This document shows, in pieces, positions 32,393 to 43,015 of a DNA stretch of 64,000 nt. The translations under genes and the position numbers were made by a program. Positions within the stretch are counted from its first letter, which is position 1; each line of letters begins with the position of its first letter. The stretch covers positions 1 to 64,000 of the forward strand of contig JANYCT010000085.1 of assembly GCA_025360105.1 (NCBI GenBank), read 5' to 3'. The notes below the pieces were generated by a model. The model saw only the letters and a list, made by a program, of their open reading frames with translations. It had not been told where the DNA came from and searched no databases. This DNA is from Actinomycetes bacterium (GTDB lineage Bacteria; Actinomycetota; Acidimicrobiia; Acidimicrobiales; Ilumatobacteraceae).

Positions 32393-34513
32393 CTACTGGA
32401 CGATGAGCGTTTGGTCGCGGTTCGTGGCGGCGGCGATGCTGCCGGCATCGAGGGTGAGATCGAGCCAAAGCTGACCCGGCGAGTCGGGCACGACGAACTG
32501 TAGGGTCGCAATGCGCGTGCAGCCGTCGTCGGCGGCGGTGCCGACGAACGTCCAGTCGTGTTCACCGGTGGCCCAGCGCAGGTGGGCGCGCAGGACGGCA
32601 TCGACCAGTGGTTGGCGAAGGTCGTTGACCACGTGAACATCGACGGCCAGGCCCTCGCCCGGTTTCACGCTCGACGGCAGCCGATCGGCGACCACGATGA
32701 CCGGACGACACGCCTCGACCACGGCGTGGAACGCCAACTTGGGCGCGCGTTGATGATCGAGCACGCTCCACGAGATCATCGGACTCGAATCGTTGAGCAT
32801 GAAGAAGCAGAACCCGCCGCTCGGGTGGTACTTCAACCGACGGAGCGTCTCGATGTGGTGCCGCAAAAGCATTGCCTGGTAGCGCTGCGTGGCCTCGCTC
32901 CACAGGTCGAATGTTGCATATGCATCAATCGGTACGTGGGCTTCCATCATCGCCCGCTGCAGGCCGTGCGATTGTTCGAGCGTGTCCCAATCGAGCTCGG
33001 GCCAGCGAGTGGTGTCGATGAACTCGTGGTGTGGTGGCACTGCCTGTGCGCCGAACTCACTGACGAAGCGAACCATGCGCGGAAACGCTGCAGCGAACGC
33101 CGGGAGGTCACGTTCGCTACCGTGGTACCAGCCGAAGTAGAGGTGGCTGTCGGAGCCACCGAATTCGGGCACGTTAGGCATGACGCCGCTATGGGCCAAG
33201 GTGGGTCGGGTGTCATCGGCCTTCTCGAACGCTCGCTTCACCCAACGGTCGAGGATGTTCTTGTTCCACGAGGGTGCCTGTTGGCGAAACAGATAGCGCG
33301 TCGCTGTCTTCCAACTGTGCTCGGGCTGGTTGAGTTCTACGGTGGCGCCAGCGGGCTCGTTGTGCGAGCACCAGGTGATGATCGATGGGTGATGGCCGAG
33401 CTCGAACACGGCCTCCTGCGCCTGTGCCACAGCCCTGCGACGGACATCGCGGGCATACGACCATTGCAGCGGGAAGTCCTGCCACAGCAGCATGCCTAAC
33501 TCATCGGCCGCGTCGTAGAGGGCCGGTGGAGCGATGTGGCCATGCACGCGCAGCAGGTCGAGCCCAGCGTCGCGGGCGAGTTCGATGTCACGGCGGAACA
33601 TTTGAGGATCAGCCGCCGCAAGGTCGAGCTGCGTCGGGGCGAGGTTGGCGCCCTTCAGATACAGGCGCTCGCCGTTGATCGACCACACCCAATCCTGCAT
33701 CGCGACCTCGCGCATGCCGGTACGCACGCTGCGCGAGTGGCTGATGACACCTTCGACCACCACATCGATCTGCACGTCGGTGAGTGCTTGTGCGCCCAAC
33801 GACAGTGGCCACCACAGTCGAGGGTTGTCGACATCGAGGTTCCAGTCGACCTCGTTGATGCCGCGCGCGAGGGATTGCTCAATCTCTGCGGTGACGACAC
33901 CATCCACCGTTGTGCGGATGCGCACGGAACGCGGTGCGTCGCTGTCGAGGCGACCGTGCAGGCGCAGATGGGCGCGAGCATCGTTCACGTCGCGGCAGAG
34001 CACGCGAAGCCGGTCGAGCCGCACGGGCCCGGTTGTTTCCACCCGCACGGGCCGCCACAGTCCACCGGGGTTCCAGTCGGGATCGGCAGCGTCCCATTGC
34101 TGCAAGACACCGGTGATGTTGCGCCGACCCTTGTGCGATGCCTGCGGCGTGCATGCGACTTCGACCGCAAGCACGTGCTCGTCGCCGAGACGGATGAGTG
34201 ACGACACGTCGAACGAGTGCGGGAAGAAGTAGCCCTCCGGGTCGCCGAGATAGGCGCCGTCGAGCCACACGTCGGCCTGGTAGAACACGCCGTCGAGCAC
34301 GATCCACGCTCGCTGGTCGGCGTCGGGTTGATCCGCGGTGAAGTTCGTGCGGTAGAGCAACGGCCCGTTGCTGTCGGCGAAGTTTGGATTGGCGTGCCAG
34401 TGGCCCGGCACCTGGATGTCGGCCCATTCGGAATCGTCGAAGTGCATGCCGACAGCGCTACGGCGAAGTTGGTCGTCGGCTGCTACCGCCCGCCATGTGC
34501 CGCTGAGATCCAT
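32393..34513 (-). CDS. glycoside hydrolase family 2 (beta-mannosidase-like)
   Basis: A 706-residue GH2 enzyme. Residues 1-200 form the sugar-binding jelly-roll (WADIQVPGHWH, LLYRTNFTAD, DGAYLGDPEGYFFPHSFDVS). An immunoglobulin-like domain and a TIM barrel follow. The acid/base glutamate lies in TWCSHNEPAG (~residue 384) and the nucleophile in RFVSEFGAQAVP (~484). The length, the motif spacing and the WFGW-like DSHLYFGWYHG fit beta-mannosidases better than beta-galactosidases, but specificity is inferred. No signal peptide is seen. ATG 34513 has a TAGGCT box 7 bases upstream; the frame continues to 34591 without support. It could complement the GH38 alpha-mannosidase. Confidence 0.9.
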   Translation of the reverse strand: MDLSGTWRAVAADDQLRRSAVGMHFDDSEWADIQVPGHWHANPNFADSNGPLLYRTNFTADQPDADQRAWIVLDGVFYQADVWLDGAYLGDPEGYFFPHSFDVSSLIRLGDEHVLAVEVACTPQASHKGRRNITGVLQQWDAADPDWNPGGLWRPVRVETTGPVRLDRLRVLCRDVNDARAHLRLHGRLDSDAPRSVRIRTTVDGVVTAEIEQSLARGINEVDWNLDVDNPRLWWPLSLGAQALTDVQIDVVVEGVISHSRSVRTGMREVAMQDWVWSINGERLYLKGANLAPTQLDLAAADPQMFRRDIELARDAGLDLLRVHGHIAPPALYDAADELGMLLWQDFPLQWSYARDVRRRAVAQAQEAVFELGHHPSIITWCSHNEPAGATVELNQPEHSWKTATRYLFRQQAPSWNKNILDRWVKRAFEKADDTRPTLAHSGVMPNVPEFGGSDSHLYFGWYHGSERDLPAFAAAFPRMVRFVSEFGAQAVPPHHEFIDTTRWPELDWDTLEQSHGLQRAMMEAHVPIDAYATFDLWSEATQRYQAMLLRHHIETLRRLKYHPSGGFCFFMLNDSSPMISWSVLDHQRAPKLAFHAVVEACRPVIVVADRLPSSVKPGEGLAVDVHVVNDLRQPLVDAVLRAHLRWATGEHDWTFVGTAADDGCTRIATLQFVVPDSPGQLWLDLTLDAGSIAAATNRDQTLIVQ

Positions 34514-34520
34514 TTTGGCA

Positions 34521-34526
34521 AGCCTA
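34521..34526 (-). promoter_or_regulatory. -10-like TAGGCT, leaderless start of GH2 gene
   Basis: TAGGCT (minus strand) lies 7 bases before ATG 34513, with no Shine-Dalgarno sequence. Confidence 0.5.
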
Positions 34527-34679
34527 CTGGCGCAAGCCCCAGCCCCAGGCAGGGACCCGCCATATGAGCAGGCAGCGGTGAGCCCCATCACGTGGTGTAG
34601 GAGTCAGCGACCCTCCTTGGGGTGATAGTGGTCATCGTGCGATTCTCGATTGCGACCAAGCAACCGAGAAGGACGCACG

Positions 34680-34965: not shown

Positions 34966-35034
34966 CTGCAGACCTGTGCTCGAACCTACAACCCGTGGGT
35001 TGCCACCTATCTCCACTCTTGATTGGAGGCGATC

Positions 35035-36264
35035 ATGAAACGAATTGGGAGTGCGTGGCTTGTTGCCGGCTCATTGATCGCAACGAGCTGTGGGCCAGCG
35101 TCGGTGAGAGTCGCGGGCGTGGACTCAAGCGCAAAGAGTCAAGGACCGGCGCCGACATCTGTTGTCGGCCAGACTGCGCCCGTCACCGGGTTCGCGCTCA
35201 CCTCATCCGAGTTTCGGCCGATCTTGTTGACGACGAAGCGCAGCTGGCCCGACGTTGCTTCTGATATCGCGATCACGGTGTTTCGCGACCCTGCAGGAGG
35301 GATCTTGACCATCGTCGACGAACAGATCTCGAGCGAAGGTCGCCCAGAGGTTGTTGGGGCGACTGACCCATCGGTCGACAACAGCCAAGCAGTCGTGGTG
35401 ACGAACTCGCGGCAACTCACGGTCACGGTGTCTGGCGTACAGCACGCACGATCTGTACGAGATGACGTCACTGCCGCGCTGATGAAGGCGGCGCGTGATA
35501 CGAGTGTCGAGATCGCTTTGCGCGCCGCTGCGGCGCAATTCGAGCTGCGCGACCAGAGTTCAGCCGGCGGCGTGGGAACCGGCTATGCGGTCACGTACTC
35601 GGATGGCGACACCGACATCACCCTCGCCGTCAACCCGGTGGCCGATTCAACCGAAGTGCAGGCAAACGATGTGCTGTCTGCGCGAACGTTCGTTCAACAC
35701 CGTGGCAACAGGGAGTACGTGACGGAGCCCGCTGTTGCTGGCGACCCGACGCAGGTTCGTTGGATCGAGAGTGGGTACCTCGTGAGTCTCATCGGCCCAG
35801 CTCGTCAGGTGAAAACCCTCTTGGACGAGGTCAGGCCCGTATCGAGCGACCCCGGAGAGACAATCGGCACGTTGATTGTGTCGAACCTCAGAGCGACCCC
35901 GCTGATCGATTCCGTCCAGATGTCGGACAGGAAAATAGAGCGCCATGAAGGAGTTCGTGGTGGCTCTGGTTCGGTATGTGTTCTCGACAAATCTGGCGCG
36001 GTTGGATGTGCCCAGTATGCACTCGTCGGCAGTATCGCCTCAGTGCTCGTTGGTTCCGATTGGTTGCTCGTGGTGATCGTGCCATCAGCGAAGCCGACTA
36101 CCCACTTTCGGACATCCCCCGGAATCGACTTCGAGTCGGTGACGGTCAACGAATTTGACTGGTCGGTCGGCGTACCCGACAGCGAGGTCCAATCGATCTC
36201 GATCTCGTATGGAACCGAGGGGATCGCCAACGATTTCGTCTCGACGTTGCTCAGGCCGGGTTGA
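35035..36264 (+). CDS. hypothetical lipoprotein
   Basis: A 409-residue protein that I cannot assign. MKRIGSAWLVAGSLIATSC is a signal peptide with lipobox ATSC at residue ~19, so it should be lipid-anchored outside the membrane. The body is rich in Val, Thr, Ser and Asp with alternating hydrophobic residues, as in beta-sheet domains (AVVVTNSRQLTVTVSGVQH, VSLIGPARQVKTLLDEVRP). Two cysteines (SVCVLDKSGAVGCAQ) could form a disulfide. ATG 35035 is set by GGAGG 6 bases upstream. Codon choice looks less GC-biased than in the neighbours, hinting at accessory origin. It may be a cell-surface binding protein. Confidence 0.65.
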   Translation: MKRIGSAWLVAGSLIATSCGPASVRVAGVDSSAKSQGPAPTSVVGQTAPVTGFALTSSEFRPILLTTKRSWPDVASDIAITVFRDPAGGILTIVDEQISSEGRPEVVGATDPSVDNSQAVVVTNSRQLTVTVSGVQHARSVRDDVTAALMKAARDTSVEIALRAAAAQFELRDQSSAGGVGTGYAVTYSDGDTDITLAVNPVADSTEVQANDVLSARTFVQHRGNREYVTEPAVAGDPTQVRWIESGYLVSLIGPARQVKTLLDEVRPVSSDPGETIGTLIVSNLRATPLIDSVQMSDRKIERHEGVRGGSGSVCVLDKSGAVGCAQYALVGSIASVLVGSDWLLVVIVPSAKPTTHFRTSPGIDFESVTVNEFDWSVGVPDSEVQSISISYGTEGIANDFVSTLLRPG

Positions 36265-36349: not shown

Positions 36350-37753
36350 ATGGCGCAGATGGCAACAACTCTTGGTGAACTCAAGGCTTCCGGCTGGCAG
36401 TCGTGGCCCGTGAAAGAGGAGATCCGTCGCAACGCAGTCGTGAAGATCTCCGCTGGGGAGCCGTTGTTCGATGGTGTGATGGGCTACGAGGACACGGTGA
36501 TGCCGCAACTCGAGAACGCCTTGCTGGCCGGTCACGACGTGATCTTCCTCGGCGAGCGCGGCCAGGCCAAAACGCGCATCATTCGCTCGCTCACTGGCCT
36601 GCTCGACGAATGGATGCCCATCGTCGCCGGTAGCGAGATCAACGACGACCCGTACTCGCCGGTGTCAAAGCATGCGCGAGATCTCGTGGTTGAGAAGGGC
36701 GACGACACGCCTATCACCTGGGTGCACCGCTCCGATCGTTATGGCGAGAAGTTGGCTACCCCCGATACGTCGATTGCCGATCTCATCGGCGAGGTCGATC
36801 CGATCAAGGTCGCCGAAGGTCGCTACCTCAGCGATGAACTCACCCTGCATTACGGCCTCGTGCCGCGCACCAACCGCGGCATCTTCGCGATCAACGAGAT
36901 TCCCGATCTCGCCGAGCGTATTCAGGTCGGTCTGCTCAACGTGCTCGAAGAGCGCGACGTGCAGGTGCGCGGCTACAAGATTCGCCTGCCGCTCGACGTC
37001 ATGCTCGTCGCCTCGGCGAACCCCGACGACTACACCAACCGCGGCCGCATCATCACGCCGCTCAAGGACCGCTTCGGTAGTCAGATCCGCACGCATTACC
37101 CACTCGAGGTCGAGACCGAAGTGGAGATCATGCGCCAAGAGGCTCGGCCCGCCAGCGTGGGCGATGTGTCCGTGCGCGTGCCCGACTACATGGAAGAAGT
37201 CATCGCCACGCTCAGCCATCTCGCTCGTGCGAGTAGCCAGGTGAACCAGCGCAGCGGTGTGTCGGTACGACTCTCGGTGAGTAACAGCGAGGTCCTCGCC
37301 GCTAATGCGTTGCGGCGTGCCCTGCGCGCCGGCGAACGCGAAGTGGTGCCGCGCATCTGCGACCTCGGCGCCATTGCGGCGTCCACTTCGGGCAAGATCG
37401 AAATCGAGTCGTTGGAAGATGGCCGCGAGGGCGCGATTCTCGAGAACCTCGTGCGTTCGGCCGTGCTCACCGTGTACAAGCAGCGCGTCACGCCCGATCA
37501 GGTGCGCGATGTCATCGCTGCATTCGACGAGGGCATCGTGGCGCATACCGGCGAGGACATGACTTCGGCCGACGAGGTCGCTTTGCTCGACTCGGTGCCC
37601 GCGCTTGGTGGGCCGGTTCTGTCGCTCGCGGGTGGCGACGAATCACCTGCCGCACTCGCCGCTGCGGTCGAGTTCGTGCTCGAGGGTCTGCATCTGTCGA
37701 AGCGGCTCAACAAGGATTCCGCCGGCTCGCGGGCCACCTACCGCGGCCGCTGA
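36350..37753 (+). CDS. magnesium chelatase ChlI-like AAA+ ATPase
   Basis: A 467-residue AAA+ ATPase. The Walker A loop is FLGERGQAKTRIIRSL near residue 68. Walker B and sensor regions follow: GIFAINEIPDLAERIQVGLL near 180 and LVASANPDDYTNRGRIITPLKDRFGSQI. The long insertion and the DDPYSPVSKHARDL segment match the ChlI/MoxR-related group annotated in Actinobacteria as magnesium chelatase-like. No chlorophyll or cobalamin chelatase genes are nearby. Its partner is probably the VWA protein starting at 39395, an AAA+ plus VWA combination typical of MoxR-type metal-insertion or protein-remodelling chaperones. It is separated from that partner by two minus-strand genes. Confidence 0.88.
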   Translation: MAQMATTLGELKASGWQSWPVKEEIRRNAVVKISAGEPLFDGVMGYEDTVMPQLENALLAGHDVIFLGERGQAKTRIIRSLTGLLDEWMPIVAGSEINDDPYSPVSKHARDLVVEKGDDTPITWVHRSDRYGEKLATPDTSIADLIGEVDPIKVAEGRYLSDELTLHYGLVPRTNRGIFAINEIPDLAERIQVGLLNVLEERDVQVRGYKIRLPLDVMLVASANPDDYTNRGRIITPLKDRFGSQIRTHYPLEVETEVEIMRQEARPASVGDVSVRVPDYMEEVIATLSHLARASSQVNQRSGVSVRLSVSNSEVLAANALRRALRAGEREVVPRICDLGAIAASTSGKIEIESLEDGREGAILENLVRSAVLTVYKQRVTPDQVRDVIAAFDEGIVAHTGEDMTSADEVALLDSVPALGGPVLSLAGGDESPAALAAAVEFVLEGLHLSKRLNKDSAGSRATYRGR

Positions 37754-37783
37754 GCCCACCTCGCCTAACGATACGGCGCCGCC

Positions 37784-38818
37784 CTATTCGGTGATGCCGA
37801 AGTAGAGGCGCCCACTGTCTTTCAACTCCCGGTCGCGGCTGATGATGCCTCGTCCGGTGTTCTGCTCCGTAAAGTCGGTGTCCGTTGCGTCGAACGCCGG
37901 GCTCACGCCTATGGAGATCAGCGGCAGCGCGGTGGCCGCTTCGGTGGTCTGTTGGAGATAGCGCTCAACCACCGATTCACGATCTGCGTCGGTGCCGGCG
38001 GGCAGCAGCATCGTGACGGCCATCTGGCGGTCGATGCCCTGCTCGGCGGCGCGGTGCAACAAACCCAACGCATCGCGCTCGTGGCGCACGGTGATGCCCA
38101 ACACATCGCATGACCCGGCCAGATCGGCGATCTCGTTGTCGGCGCGTCCGGGGATGCTCACCACGCCGTCGCGCAGGCCCTGCAACCACAGCCGCCAACG
38201 GATCTGATCGAGGCGCTTTGCCGCGTGTTCGGCCGGGATGGTCTGATCAACGGGACGCACGATCTCCATCCCGAACGACGTGATCACCGGAGGTCCGCCG
38301 CGCAGGACCCGCCACGCATCGCGCCAACCGGTGATGACGGTGTCGAGCACCTCGCCGTGACGACGTGGGTCATCGGGGAACAAACGGTTGGCGACGGCGA
38401 GTGGGTGGTCGATGGGTACCCAGCCGGCAACGTTGTCGCCGAACGAATCGGCGCAGACCTCGACCCAGCGCGGCCACCAGTGGCCCGCCCACTTGGGGTC
38501 CGCGAATCCGCCGTCGTTGTCGAACCACTTCGGTACGCCGCGTTCGAGCAGCGTGAACTGCAGGGCCACGTTGCACGAACGAGCGGTCTGCGTAGCACCC
38601 GTATAGAACTCGACCGCATCGCCATTGACGGCACCCGCGCTCGGTTGCATCCACGACCAGTCGACGCCGATACGAATTTCGTCGGCACCCAGTTCTGCGA
38701 GCAGTGCGATGTCCTCGTGCAGGCGCACGCGATCGAGCGTGGCGCCCGGGATCACGACGCTGCGGCGGGGCGAGCCAGAAGGGGAGCCAGTGCAGGACTC
38801 GGTGGAGGCGCCGGGCAC
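37784..38818 (-). CDS. GH1-like (beta/alpha)8 protein, probably lacking catalytic residues
   Basis: A 344-residue protein resembling a short family-1 glycosidase. LHEDIALLAELGADEIRIGVDWSWMQPSAGAVN matches the early barrel of GH1 (here quoted in part: ELGADEIRIGVDWSWMQP), and later YTGATQTARSCNVALQFTLL and WAGHWWPRWVEVCADSFG correspond to the helix before the acid/base site. Where GH1 enzymes have the NEP motif, this protein reads WVPIDHPLAV. No clear ENG nucleophile motif follows. It is also shorter than GH1 (~450). It is likely a pseudoenzyme or a new specificity. Start GTG 38818 shares one base with the stop codon of the upstream cyclase-domain gene, so the two are coupled. Confidence 0.6.
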   Translation of the reverse strand: MPGASTESCTGSPSGSPRRSVVIPGATLDRVRLHEDIALLAELGADEIRIGVDWSWMQPSAGAVNGDAVEFYTGATQTARSCNVALQFTLLERGVPKWFDNDGGFADPKWAGHWWPRWVEVCADSFGDNVAGWVPIDHPLAVANRLFPDDPRRHGEVLDTVITGWRDAWRVLRGGPPVITSFGMEIVRPVDQTIPAEHAAKRLDQIRWRLWLQGLRDGVVSIPGRADNEIADLAGSCDVLGITVRHERDALGLLHRAAEQGIDRQMAVTMLLPAGTDADRESVVERYLQQTTEAATALPLISIGVSPAFDATDTDFTEQNTGRGIISRDRELKDSGRLYFGITE

Positions 38819-39369
38819 TAGAGGCCGAATGGGGCGCGAGTCCAGAGTTCGCTGGTGTCGGTGCCCTCGGCCTCGGTGAGTTCGCCGGTGAGTTCGAAGA
38901 CTTCGATGGCGCCGGGGAACCCGCGCAGTTCCAACGCCCCGTGGGCGGTTGCGTGGATACCTGCTGGCAGGCGTTCGAGTTGCATTGAGGGGATCAGCAC
39001 TTCGAACGGCCCGGCGGCATCGCACAGACGCGCCGCCATATTGACTGCTGACCCGATGTAGTCGTCGCCTTCGAACAGCAGCGCATGGCCGGTGGCAATG
39101 CCCACGCGCAGCGACAGCGGTGCGCACACGTGAGAAGCCTTGGCTTCGAGGTCCATCGAGAACGCCACGCAGTCGGTCTGATTCATGGCCACGATCATGC
39201 AGCCATCGCCCAGCCACTTCGCAATGCGCACTCCGTGTGCACTGGAGACATCGCGCGCAATGGCCCGAAACGCGCTGAGGATGCGGCCTGCGGCATCGTC
39301 GCCAAAGGCAGCGGTGTAGTTGGTAAAACCGGAAAGGTCCACAAATGCGAACGTGCGGGGGACACGCAT
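38818..39369 (-). CDS. class III adenylate/guanylate cyclase-domain protein
   Basis: A 183-residue stand-alone class III nucleotide cyclase catalytic domain. Metal-binding aspartates sit in FAFVDLSGFTNYT (residue ~11) and AKWLGDGCMIV (~55). The transition-state Asn/Arg pair is in GSAVNMAARLC (N-x3-R). LRVGIATGHALLFEGDDYIG is also typical. It lacks membrane or sensory domains, so it is probably soluble and its activity may depend on a partner. The C-terminal tail (VFELTGELTEAEGTD) is acidic. ATG 39369 is 25 bases from the divergent VWA gene, and their -10 boxes overlap. It overlaps the downstream GH1-like gene by one base. Confidence 0.85.
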   Translation of the reverse strand: MRVPRTFAFVDLSGFTNYTAAFGDDAAGRILSAFRAIARDVSSAHGVRIAKWLGDGCMIVAMNQTDCVAFSMDLEAKASHVCAPLSLRVGIATGHALLFEGDDYIGSAVNMAARLCDAAGPFEVLIPSMQLERLPAGIHATAHGALELRGFPGAIEVFELTGELTEAEGTDTSELWTRAPFGL

Positions 39370-39378
39370 AACACCGTC

Positions 39379-39388
39379 AGGCTAGCGT
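39379..39388. promoter_or_regulatory. overlapping divergent -10 boxes (shared GCTAGC)
   Basis: TAGCGT (39383-39388, plus) is 6 bases before ATG 39395 of the VWA gene. TAGCCT (39384-39379, minus) is 9 bases before ATG 39369 of the cyclase gene. The two boxes share a TA step in a GCTAGC palindrome, so the polymerases would compete. Confidence 0.5.
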
Positions 39389-39394
39389 GCGATC

Positions 39395-41413
39395 ATGGCT
39401 GCACGGTTCACCTATTCACGATGGGATGGCACGCAGAAGGGTTTCGAGCTCGACGCGGAAACCGTGTTCGACGCTATGACCGACGATCTGCTGTATCACG
39501 GAGACGTGAACAGCGCCCTGCGTCGCATGATGCAAGAGGGTTTCAAGGACCGCAACGGCGACCGGCTGCAGGGCATGCGCGAGATCATGGATCGGCTGCG
39601 TCAGGAGCGTCAGGAGCGTCTCGATCGTGGAGATCTCGGCGGTGTCTTCCAGGAGATCGCCGACGCACTCGACGATATCGTCGACGAAGAACGTCATGCC
39701 GTCGAGAACGCGAAGAACGCGGCAGAGGCCAGTGGCGACGAGCGCCGCGCCGAGACCGCGCGTCAAACTGCCGAGGATCGCAATTTCCGCCTCGACATGC
39801 TGCCCGACGATCTCGCCGGCAAGGTACGCGAACTGCAGGCCTACGACTTCGAATCGGCCGAGGCGAAGCAGCGTTTCGACGATCTGATGGACACGCTCCG
39901 CCAACAACTCATGCAGCAAGCTGTCGACCAGATGAGCGGCGCAATGCAGAACATGTCGCCCGAGGACATGCAGCACATGAAAGACATGCTCGCCGGGCTG
40001 AACGAGATGCTCGACAAGCAACAGCGCGGCGAGGATCCCGGCTTCGAAGAGTTCATGGAGAACTTCGGGGACTTCTTCCCCGAAAATCCCGAAACGCTCG
40101 AAGAACTGCTCGAGATCATGGCCCAGCGCATGGCCGCGATGCAGGCGATGATGAACTCGATGACACCCGAGCAGCGTGCGCAGATGCAACAGCTCAGTGA
40201 CCAGCTGATGGAAGACATGGACCTGCGTTGGCAGATTGATCAGCTCGGCCAGAACCTGCGGGGCATGTTCCCGCAGATGAATTGGAACCAGAGCTACGAC
40301 ATGCAGGGCCAAGATCCCATGGGATTCGGTCAGGCGATGCAAACCATGCAGGAGCTCGGCGAACTCGACCAGCTCGAGAACCTGTTGCGCAACGCCACCA
40401 CACCGGGCGCGTTGGCCGAGGCCGACATGGATCGTGTGCGCGATCTCATGGGCGACGACGCCGCAAAGTCACTCGCCCGTATGGCCGAACTCGCGAAGAT
40501 GCTCGAGGAAGCCGGCCTCATCCAGAACAAGGAAGGTCGCCTCGAACTCACGCCGAAGGGCCTGCGCAAGATCGGCTCGAACGCGCTGCGCGATCTGTAC
40601 AGCAAGCTCGCCAAGGACAAGACTGGTCAGCATCAGATGGACCGCTTCGGGCAGGGCCACGAGCGCACCTACGAGACCAAGCAGTACGAGTACGGCGATC
40701 CGTTCAACCTCGATCTCCAACGCACGCTGCGCAACGCCATCCGCCGTGGTGGGTCAGGAACGCCGGTGCGTTTGTCGCCTGACGATTTCGAGATCGAACG
40801 CACCGAGCACGTCACGCGCTCGTCCACCGTGCTCATGCTCGACCTCTCGATGAGCATGCCCATGCGCGATAACTTCCTGCCGGCGAAGAAGGTGGCGATG
40901 GCGTTGCATTCGCTGATCACGTCGCAGTTCCCGCGCGACTACATGGGCTTGGTCGGTTTCGGTGAAGTGGCTCGCGTCATTACCGCAGAGCAACTCCCCG
41001 AAGTCAGTTGGGACTTTGCCTACGGCACCAACATGCAGCACGCGCTCATGCTCAGCCGCCAACTGTTGTCACGCCAGACCGGCACCAAGCAGATCATCAT
41101 GATCACCGACGGCGAACCCACGGCGCATATCACGGCCAGCGGGCACCCGTACTTCAACTATCCGCCCACGCAGGAGACCATCGAGGCGACGCTGCGCGAG
41201 GTCGTGCGGTGCACGAAGGACAACATTCGTATCAACACCTTCATGCTCGATGCCGATCGGTCGTTGAAGAGTTTCATCGAGAAGCTCACCGCCATCAACC
41301 GGGGCCGTGCTTTCTTTACCACGCCCGACACGCTGGGCGACTACGTGCTCGTCGACTTCATCGAGAACAAGAAGAAGATGGCCCGCGGCAACGGCCGTCG
41401 CGCCGCTGGCTGA
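39395..41413 (+). CDS. VWA-domain protein, predicted partner of the AAA+ ATPase
   Basis: A 672-residue protein. Residues ~1-400 are long, charged and methionine/glutamine-rich, with coiled-coil-like helices (QAMMNSMTPEQRAQMQQLSD). A C-terminal von Willebrand factor A domain starts near residue 475. Its metal-ion site is LMLDLSMSMPM (DxSxS) with ITDGEPTAHI supplying the later Asp. The architecture equals the ChlD/CobT-like subunits that work with ChlI/MoxR-type ATPases such as the one at 36350. No membrane segment is seen, so the complex is probably cytosolic. ATG 39395 has a TAGCGT box 6 bases upstream. Confidence 0.87.
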   Translation: MAARFTYSRWDGTQKGFELDAETVFDAMTDDLLYHGDVNSALRRMMQEGFKDRNGDRLQGMREIMDRLRQERQERLDRGDLGGVFQEIADALDDIVDEERHAVENAKNAAEASGDERRAETARQTAEDRNFRLDMLPDDLAGKVRELQAYDFESAEAKQRFDDLMDTLRQQLMQQAVDQMSGAMQNMSPEDMQHMKDMLAGLNEMLDKQQRGEDPGFEEFMENFGDFFPENPETLEELLEIMAQRMAAMQAMMNSMTPEQRAQMQQLSDQLMEDMDLRWQIDQLGQNLRGMFPQMNWNQSYDMQGQDPMGFGQAMQTMQELGELDQLENLLRNATTPGALAEADMDRVRDLMGDDAAKSLARMAELAKMLEEAGLIQNKEGRLELTPKGLRKIGSNALRDLYSKLAKDKTGQHQMDRFGQGHERTYETKQYEYGDPFNLDLQRTLRNAIRRGGSGTPVRLSPDDFEIERTEHVTRSSTVLMLDLSMSMPMRDNFLPAKKVAMALHSLITSQFPRDYMGLVGFGEVARVITAEQLPEVSWDFAYGTNMQHALMLSRQLLSRQTGTKQIIMITDGEPTAHITASGHPYFNYPPTQETIEATLREVVRCTKDNIRINTFMLDADRSLKSFIEKLTAINRGRAFFTTPDTLGDYVLVDFIENKKKMARGNGRRAAG

Positions 41414-41486: not shown

Positions 41487-42008
41487 ATGTTGGAACCTGA
41501 TGAGATGACCGAGCACGAGCTACCCGCAACTGATGCCGTCGATGGTGGCACACAGTGGGTGCCGTTGCGCGGCGATGCCACTGACACGTACCAGCGTCTG
41601 TACGAGCCACTGTGCCGGATGGCGTTCCTGCTTGTGGACACCCGCGAGCAGGCCGAGGAAGTGGTGCAGGAGGCATTCGCCAAGGCGTTGCCGCGCTGGA
41701 CCAAGCTCACGAATCCCGATGCTTACGTGCGCGCCAGTGTGCTCAATGGTTGTCGCCGGGTGCATCGGCGTCGGGCCTTGGCGCGTCGACGTCCGGTGCC
41801 ACACGAGGGCCTCGATACCCCTGCGGTCACCGACCACGTGATCGACGCATTGCGTCGCTTGCCATCGCCCCAGCGCGAGGTCGTCGTGCTGCGTTTCTAC
41901 CTGCAATCCACTGATGCCGAAATCGCGGAAACGCTCGGCATCGCCATCGGCACCGTGAAGTCATCACTGAGCCGCGCCAAGACCCGCCTGAAAGAGGAAC
42001 TGCAATGA
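41487..42008 (+). CDS. SigE-like ECF sigma factor
   Basis: A 173-residue sigma-70 family factor with regions 2 and 4 only. Region 2 is YQRLYEPLCRMAFLLVDTRE with QAEEVVQEAFAKAL. Region 4 is RLPSPQREVVVLRFYLQSTD with the helix-turn-helix AEIAETLGIAIGTVKSSLSR. This matches the SigE-type ECF group of Actinobacteria. The start is either ATG 41487 or ATG 41505 (MTEHELPATD); the family N-terminus does not decide. The stop overlaps the next gene as ATGA, so the two are coupled. The downstream membrane protein is its probable regulator. Confidence 0.88.
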   Translation: MLEPDEMTEHELPATDAVDGGTQWVPLRGDATDTYQRLYEPLCRMAFLLVDTREQAEEVVQEAFAKALPRWTKLTNPDAYVRASVLNGCRRVHRRRALARRRPVPHEGLDTPAVTDHVIDALRRLPSPQREVVVLRFYLQSTDAEIAETLGIAIGTVKSSLSRAKTRLKEELQ

Positions 42009-43015
42009 GCGAAATCGATGAAGTCCTGGCCGAAAGCATGCGCCGCCGTGCCGCGGAGGCCCGCCTCGGTGGAGGCTCGATGGCCGACGTTCAGCAGCGC
42101 GTGGTGCGTCGTCGCCGCCGCGTTGCCACCGCCGCGTGCGCAGTGCTCGTGATCCCTGCACTGGTGGGGATCGGTGTCGTGATCGGTCAGCACTCTTCCC
42201 GCAACAACATCAGTGCCGCCGCCGAAGATGGCACGACGCAGAGCACGGTTGTTTCGCCTGGTGCACCGTGTGCGGCCAGCTTCCCGGCAGGGGTGACACC
42301 GACGCCATGCGCCATGACCAACGGCTTGGTGGTGTCCTGCGCCAGCGGGGGAAGCGGTAGCGGCACGGTGAGGGTCGGTGCCCCCGGCGTCGTACCGCCC
42401 GAGCCAGCGCCAGCAGGCACGGTACCAGCAAGCACAACTCCGCCCGACTCCGCGGTCCTCATCACGCCCGAGCCAGCGCCAGCAGGCACGGTACCAGCAA
42501 ACACAACTCCGCCCGACTCAGCGGTCCTCATCACGCCCGACACCGGACCGGCGAACACCTACCCGGTGATCGATCCCTCGACCGTCGACTGCTCGATGCC
42601 CGCGTGCGTGAGCGGCGTGATGGGTACCTCGACCCAGTCCGTCGAGGTCGGCGCCAGCGGTTCCGGTACCGCTGCGGATGGGCCAACCGGTGATGCCAGC
42701 ACCGTGCCTCCCGGCGAGATCATCGCACCGTCGGTGGAACCAGCGGCGATTGCCCCCGGCTCCGTGCCTCCTGATGCCGGCACCAAGGTGGTCGGTACCA
42801 ATGGCGCCGTCGTCAGCGTTGCCGGCCCCATCAACTGCGGTGGCCCCACGAGTTGGACATGCACCGGCGAGATCACCACGTCGTCCACCCAGCCCGGCTG
42901 GCGTGACTTCACCCAGTGCGTTCCCGTGTACCCCACGGTCGACGGTACGACCACCGTTGAGTCCGGCACTGTTCAGGCCGACACGATGGTGCCTGTCCCC
43001 GCTCCAACTCCATAG
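42005..43015 (+). CDS. single-pass membrane protein with Pro/Thr-rich repeats, putative sigma regulator
   Basis: A 336-residue protein. A short cytosolic part (residues 1-39, MSEIDEVLAESMRRRAAEA and a run of arginines) leads to one transmembrane helix (VATAACAVLVIPALVGIGVV). The ~270-residue extracytoplasmic region is Pro, Thr, Gly and Val rich. It contains two exact-length 23-residue repeats (PEPAPAGTVP...SAVLIT). The topology and position after an ECF factor suggest an anti-sigma-like partner, but no zinc anti-sigma motif (HxxxCxxC) is present. Four cysteines occur in the outer half (TWTCTGE, DFTQCVPV and others). The start ATG 42005 overlaps the sigma gene stop. Confidence 0.6.
   Translation: MSEIDEVLAESMRRRAAEARLGGGSMADVQQRVVRRRRRVATAACAVLVIPALVGIGVVIGQHSSRNNISAAAEDGTTQSTVVSPGAPCAASFPAGVTPTPCAMTNGLVVSCASGGSGSGTVRVGAPGVVPPEPAPAGTVPASTTPPDSAVLITPEPAPAGTVPANTTPPDSAVLITPDTGPANTYPVIDPSTVDCSMPACVSGVMGTSTQSVEVGASGSGTAADGPTGDASTVPPGEIIAPSVEPAAIAPGSVPPDAGTKVVGTNGAVVSVAGPINCGGPTSWTCTGEITTSSTQPGWRDFTQCVPVYPTVDGTTTVESGTVQADTMVPVPAPTP
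42398..42535 (+). repeat. 69-base tandem repeat inside the membrane-protein gene
   Basis: Two in-frame 69-base copies (42398-42466 and 42467-42535) encode nearly identical 23-residue units of Pro/Thr/Ala-rich sequence. Three base differences are visible. The recent duplication suggests the length of the stalk-like region varies. Confidence 0.8.

Follow-up and report, generated by a model that had tools for sequence, protein, structure and literature searches.

The window considered here (the whole stretch of DNA that was analysed, 64,000 nucleotides from the start of contig JANYCT010000085.1) belongs to an actinobacterial genome of the family Ilumatobacteraceae, order Acidimicrobiales (assembly GCA_025360105.1; 3.89 Mb in 105 contigs). 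Within it lies a block in which a gene for an AAA+ ATPase of the MoxR/ChlI-like kind and a gene for a protein with a VWA domain, both on the plus strand, enclose two minus-strand genes, one for a protein with the fold of GH1 glycosidases and one for a class III nucleotide cyclase (Table 1). This is the order described in a first-pass annotation of the sequence, and all four genes are indeed found there. The same annotation proposed that the four form a single signalling or metal/protein-remodelling system; the comparisons set out below point instead, with fair probability, to a nested arrangement centred on the cyclase and on a promoter region that it would share with the VWA gene.

Table 1 Positions of the genes and of the putative promoter at the locus, numbered along the window
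Feature	Position	Strand	Characteristics
AAA+ ATPase, MoxR/ChlI-like kind, 467 aa	36350-37753	+	Walker A GERGQAKT; Walker B Asn-Glu
GH1-fold protein, 344 aa, probable pseudo-glycosidase	37784-38818	-	both catalytic glutamates gone; GTG start
Stand-alone class III nucleotide cyclase, 183 aa	38818-39369	-	hexad D11 K51 D55 D103 N110 R114
Putative bidirectional promoter, 25 bp	39370-39394	both	TAGCCT 39384-39379 (minus); TAGCGT 39383-39388 (plus)
VWA protein, 672 aa	39395-41413	+	helical N-terminal part; C-terminal VWA domain, MIDAS intact

The stop codon TAG of the cyclase gene and the GTG start of the GH1-like gene have one base in common. Gene starts were assigned by homology or by pattern, so that all gap lengths quoted here are uncertain by a few codons.

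The ATPase/VWA pair

In a 59-row alignment the Walker A lysine of the ATPase is present in 56/56 scored rows and the Walker B Asn-Glu in 58/58, and the metal-ion-dependent adhesion site (MIDAS) of the VWA protein is equally constant (D483, S485 and S487 in 59/59 rows, T545 in 58/58, D572 in 57/57). The Walker A and B motifs, the sensor motifs and the MIDAS of a MoxR/ChlI-like AAA+ protein with a VWA partner are thus all found, whereas the adjacency of the two genes that would complete the picture is lacking in the window. Homologues of the ATPase and of the VWA protein occur in 60 and 59, respectively, of 61 genomes (the window's own being counted).

The claim that such genes are normally adjacent holds for some relatives and not for others. 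Among 34 cyclase-free loci showing both genes there are eight in which they lie on one strand no more than 30 bp apart, all from basal families (G037, G039, G040, G042, G050, G056, G057 and L280), and in these the pair abuts with neither a cyclase nor a GH1 gene in between; the other 26 have intervening sequence or genes, or a longer gap. The homologues overlap in Tsukamurella (51% and 33% identity), where four genes separate the pair from purH, and are 25 bp apart in Thermomicrobium. Since the pair is adjacent in these eight loci and in both of these genera, adjacency is probably the older state, a deduction that depends on the basal rows together with Tsukamurella and Thermomicrobium, the tree itself having been midpoint-rooted for drawing. 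Abutting pairs lacking both other genes are also just the case that the first-pass annotation had named beforehand as refuting its proposal.

A similar and possibly orthologous pair is Rv0958/Rv0959, next to which lies Rv0957, which we take to be purH. The likeness is known by way of Tsukamurella, with its overlapping homologues near purH; the Ilumatobacteraceae pair differs from it in being split by the cyclase and GH1-like genes and in having promoter boxes of its own for the VWA gene. We know of no function for the ATPase/VWA pair. In one source the Mycobacterium marinum orthologue of Rv0958 is annotated as a magnesium chelatase (1,392 bp; PMC11237697). For the window ATPase itself a role as magnesium or cobalt chelatase is unsupported and was rejected, the relevant models scoring far under their cut-offs (BchI/ChlI 46.9 against 466.95 bits; cobaltochelatase 39.4 against 779.45 bits). 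The structure predicted for the VWA protein was likewise discarded as a functional clue, being a poor model (pLDDT confidence score 70.6) whose best matches are mostly VWA/MIDAS-type domains.

As a separate observation, the interval between ATPase and VWA genes resembles an insertion hot spot in L151, L158, L179 and L181; genes seen in such intervals include, by eye, an ABC transporter, an M23-like peptidase and an acyl-CoA dehydrogenase-like gene, and, by BLAST, a sigma-factor-like one.

The cyclase and its gap with the VWA gene

The annotation of a class III cyclase is confirmed by a match to PF00211 (28.7 bits against a cut-off of 21.9). Its distribution was followed on a tree built by a quick search from 122 unique VWA proteins (61 genomes, 80 further loci and the window), after removal of rows shorter than 450 aa and of 16 near-duplicates. 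The Ilumatobacteraceae, bacteria mostly of fresh water, form one clade of 77 rows (SH-aLRT support 99), and a cyclase gene is present at the locus in 74 of these; one row (G027) is without it and two are not long enough for a decision, giving 74/75 informative rows. Outside the clade no cyclase was found at the VWA locus in any of 45 rows, six of which are too short to tell. This distribution fits one gain and one loss, and a recent mobile insertion was ruled out, the gene being confined to a single clade in a manner compatible with one gain. (The loci L223, L225, L246, L251, L263 and L278 come from metagenome-assembled genomes titled Bifidobacterium breve or Acidimicrobium ferrooxidans, titles which look wrong; the VWA proteins of the first five fall within the Ilumatobacteraceae clade, and that of L278 near it.)

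Leaving the window aside, 73 unique loci were compared: in 70 the cyclase gene diverges from the VWA gene at a distance of no more than 300 bp, in G020 the two are separated by 8.6 kb, and the remaining two loci carry a 1.2-kb insert. Exactly one match to this cyclase was obtained in 139/150 Ilumatobacteraceae genomes, and in 75/76 of those of good quality. A sample of 296 genomes across the phylum gave 13 matches, nine of them in the family and four elsewhere in the order (40-47% identity). Because eight relatives from the order (41-51% identity) are encoded away from any VWA gene, the cyclase probably moved to the VWA locus from within the order. Near two of these unlinked relatives an lgt-like gene was noticed by eye, adjoining in L196 (G051) and one open reading frame (ORF) away in L194 (G047); two others, L200 (G038) and L201 (G042), end in a Cys-containing motif, DPVC...C..AC, that is unseen in the Ilumatobacteraceae cyclases.

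The catalytic hexad given in Table 1 is complete in 76/76 Ilumatobacteraceae cyclases and in all six unlinked order relatives scored, and it aligns with that of Rv1264. We take its members to be the two metal-binding aspartates, the Lys/Asp pair that recognises adenine, and the Asn and Arg of the active site; on this assumption the K51/D103 rule points to ATP as substrate, and the predicted product is cyclic AMP (cAMP). The domain is that of the class III cyclases Rv1900c/LipJ, Rv1264 and Ma1120, from which the locus cyclase differs in standing alone, in carrying a C-terminal tail of its own and in being encoded beside a VWA gene. The tail, DTSELWTRAPFGL in the window, follows the pattern [DEN][LFHI]WTR plus four to five residues in 67 of the 76 Ilumatobacteraceae cyclases; its codons vary synonymously, and it is therefore kept at the protein level. 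The other nine comprise one cut ORF and eight cyclases with degenerate forms such as DTTEIWAQ. None of the six unlinked order relatives scored has the tail, nor do two further ones that were read.

The place of this enzyme among the cAMP proteins of the family was assessed in 32 of 37 Ilumatobacteraceae genomes (G004, G005, G008, G023 and G031 were left out). In 11 of the 32 the locus cyclase is the sole cyclase found with PF00211 and a 14-row profile, a count that covers class III enzymes only; PF00211 missed the locus cyclase itself in four of these 11 genomes, and five weak additional matches bear GGDEF-type motifs. Ten of the sole-cyclase genomes are of 1.5-2.2 Mb and one is of 3.8 Mb, with completeness of 89-98%. 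Domains that bind cyclic nucleotide monophosphates (cNMP) are present in 32/32 genomes, and a CRP with an FG[ED]...RSA pocket and the helix-turn-helix (HTH) sequence TQEELAGMVGASRERVNKA was found in 10 of the 11 sole-cyclase genomes, the regulator retrieved from the eleventh (G014) being of another kind. A sole class III cyclase accompanied by a CRP, as in these ten genomes, would amount to a minimal cAMP circuit.

Between the cyclase and VWA genes of the window, positions 39379-39388 read AGGCTAGCGT. Two -10 boxes with two bases in common can be read in it: TAGCCT, which points to the cyclase and stands 9 nt ahead of that gene's start, and TAGCGT, which points to the VWA gene and stands 6 nt ahead of its start; the 25-bp gap has no space for a usual leader. 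Overlapping boxes had already been pointed out in the first-pass annotation, and their presence in 9/9 members of the window's genus, the window included, goes beyond chance. A scan for promoters covered 72 gaps, and one for CRP-type sites covered the 70 of these that are 16-400 bp long, loci in which no cyclase start could be found by pattern being excluded. In 72/72 gaps the cyclase start is preceded, at 6-11 nt, by the motif TANNNT (shuffled sequences: mean 4.08), and TANNNT-N4-8-start precedes the VWA gene in 70/72, a count made without a shuffle control.

The consensus of CRP/GlxR-type sites is TGTGA-N6-TCACA. Sites with at most one mismatch to it occur in 7/70 gaps (shuffles: mean 0.065, maximum 1) and at 22 per 1.73 Mb over all fetched loci, and two further gaps have a site with two mismatches. 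Measured from the cyclase start, the site is centred at 38.5-40.5 bp in six loci and at 22.5 bp in G021; G023 too has a one-mismatch site upstream of the cyclase. In further genomes of genus g11 a site was found at 37.5-40.5 bp in 11/11 (ten with 0-1 mismatch, one with two). Four of these 11, and two of three g19 genomes, have cyclase and promoter sequences that match loci of the first scan exactly; the seven truly new g11 genomes all have the site, six with 0-1 mismatch and one with two, and its inner six bases differ among them. A CRP with a cAMP-type pocket and sites of this form recall the CRP/GlxR-cAMP circuits of Actinobacteria, the present sites differing in their position between cyclase and VWA genes and in belonging mainly to one lineage.

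The GH1-like gene

The match of the GH1-like protein to PF00232 is confined to residues 33-144 (E-value 1.2e-13). The motif NEP of GH1 enzymes had been said to be missing from it, and the window protein does read IDHP at that spot; the columns of the catalytic acid/base and nucleophile hold H and M (the roles of NEP, and of the His-Trp (HW) of the -1 subsite, are those which we assume from general knowledge). Among 36 Ilumatobacteraceae members the nucleophile glutamate is found in none (two gaps), HW is gone from all, and a glutamate in the acid/base column is found in one, at an uncertain and probably alignment-caused position. The AlphaFold2 (AF2) model is nonetheless confident (pLDDT 89.9), and its 50 best matches are GH1 structures (TM-score, normalised to the query, 0.77-0.83), so that by this model the (beta/alpha)8 barrel of the family is present and the catalytic glutamates are not; the protein is some 100 residues shorter than the structures it matches. 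A pseudogene was ruled out on the grounds of this confident barrel, of the absence of stops in seven genus members and of a ratio of nonsynonymous to synonymous substitution rates (dN/dS) of 0.10-0.19, as against 0.04-0.12 for the ATPase, cyclase and VWA genes (six of the eight other members of the window's genus were used). In the Ilumatobacteraceae, then, the protein is probably a folded, selected and inactive GH1.

Outside the family, 16 rows have GH1 homologues in the same slot, antisense to the VWA gene except in L276, whose GH1 lies on the opposite strand to the others and scores just 95 bits. Both glutamates are retained in six (L276 counted) of 17 such outside sequences and the acid/base glutamate in 11, so that the number of catalytic glutamates in the GH1 proteins of one genomic slot ranges from two through one to none. 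Of the 74 cyclase rows within the family, 32 have the gene and 42 yielded none; since the ATPase is in view in 38 of the latter, the slot itself was seen there. Since GH1 proteins with both glutamates occupy the slot outside the family, and since the gene was not found in 42/74 rows within it, GH1 was probably there before the cyclase, became inactive without leaving the slot and is optional.

Explanations of the locus

The four-part system of the first-pass annotation is supported in part, through its stable cyclase (74/75 rows, hexad 76/76). The expectation that the four genes would stay together in relatives is not borne out, given the many rows in which GH1 was not found, the absence of the cyclase from G027, which retains ATPase and VWA, and the distant ATPase of G009, G029 and G035, in all three of which cyclase and VWA are still together. 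A single obligate system of four genes is accordingly ruled out, GH1 being optional and the basal pair adjacent.

What the sequences themselves establish is the order and distribution of the genes, the residues, the -10 boxes, the CRP-type sites and the tail. Building on these, the explanation which we regard as fairly probable is that the locus is nested, and that the cyclase is the family's core adenylate cyclase, its cAMP being read by CRP and its promoter shared with VWA. An old ATPase/VWA pair would have been opened up twice: a GH1 gene running antisense, with its two catalytic glutamates intact, would have entered it in the Acidimicrobiales, and the ancestor of the Ilumatobacteraceae would then have gained a stand-alone class III cyclase that faces VWA head-to-head. 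The most likely product of the cyclase is cAMP, which a CRP/GlxR-like regulator would read, and we infer that cyclase and VWA are fired from back-to-back, nearly leaderless promoters. Where the -10 boxes overlap, as they do in the window's genus, polymerase can probably not serve both directions at once. In g11 and the lineages closest to it, CRP would probably bind some 38-40 bp upstream of the cyclase start and, in the six loci measured, 65-95 bp upstream of VWA, which would close a feedback loop and couple VWA to cAMP as well. The GH1-like protein would descend from an active glycosidase of which it keeps the fold, and would be optional. The ATPase/VWA pair is found across Actinobacteria and in Thermomicrobium, and its tie to a core source of cAMP would offer a testable handle on it.

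Several results weigh against this explanation. The locus cyclase is not the only one in the window genome (G000), which has 13 PF00211 matches and 10 cNMP-binding matches, small-genome relatives having one PF00211 match or none. No match to the cyclase was obtained in 11/150 Ilumatobacteraceae genomes (four of the 11 misses, G027 included, fall in genus g20, and among the 76 good genomes G027 alone lacks it). At the gap, 61/70 have three or more mismatches to a CRP-type site, most such sites are confined to one clade, and the window's genus, with gaps of 25-46 bp, has none; the site is also absent from one new g14, one new g19 and one g23 genome, and that of G021 is therefore not kept in its genus. 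Finally, the conserved tail and the near-universal retention of the cyclase would suit direct protein control as well.

Under such control, which we think rather unlikely as the main explanation, the bare cyclase would answer directly to the complex of ATPase and VWA protein, or else to the GH1-like protein, the tail, DTxELWTRxPF, being a docking peptide gained with the move beside VWA. The lack of a sensor domain on the cyclase would suit this, as would a tail held in 67/76 family members through varied codons and seen in 0/6 order relatives encoded elsewhere, the linkage of cyclase and VWA surviving a distant ATPase, and the overlap of GH1-like start and cyclase stop in the window. A shared promoter would by itself keep cyclase and VWA together, however; moreover the tail is degenerate in eight loci where linkage is kept, it is retained in G020 despite the 8.6 kb between the two genes, and VWA persists without a cyclase in G027. 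A composite, in which the AAA+/VWA machine docks the cyclase through the tail and so sets cAMP, cAMP-CRP in turn sets VWA, the pseudo-glycosidase is an optional adaptor and the enzyme is the core class III adenylate cyclase of the whole family and the sole one in its small genomes, seems to us quite unlikely.

Neutral hitchhiking would make the interval between ATPase and VWA an insertion hot spot in which the cyclase was trapped by carrying the VWA promoter. Varied genes do lie in this interval across the order, and removal of the cyclase could take the promoter along with it. Against this, GH1 comes and goes whereas cyclase and hexad persist, ten genomes of 1.5-2.2 Mb yielded the locus cyclase as their sole class III cyclase, and the CRP-type sites in the gap fit a role in cAMP signalling; we judge hitchhiking quite unlikely. 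In a 2020 eLife paper, vWA-MoxR ternary conflict systems are described in which MoxR-like ATPases, vWA proteins and cNMP cyclases co-occur, the cyclase domains there being fused to vWA/VMAP parts, unlike the separate gene kept family-wide here (PMC7159879). A defence system of that kind, or a Pycsar-like one, was rejected as very improbable: PADLOC gave weak PycC matches only (best E-value 1.3e-6), the gene is single-copy and near-universal in the family, the bpMoxR model scores 19.2 against a cut-off of 27, and no VMAP or Pycsar effector was recognised among the window genes scanned, some neighbours lying outside the scan (none of the eight window proteins scanned against Pfam was named VMAP, for which no specific model was searched).

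Among the matches listed in a literature search, from which most subscription journals fell outside, no paper title concerned this gene arrangement. As regards the flanks, a GH2 glycosidase gene at 32393-34591 (minus strand) is divergent from the ATPase gene, with a 413-aa ORF without a Pfam match (35023-36264, plus strand) between them in the window; among 82 loci with sufficient flank, 51 have a GH2 gene in the 3 kb preceding the ATPase gene. Directly downstream of VWA, at 41487-43015 (plus strand), are a gene for a SigE-like sigma factor of the extracytoplasmic function (ECF) type and then a Pro/Thr-rich ORF without a Pfam match; an ECF sigma gene follows VWA in several other Ilumatobacteraceae loci as well.

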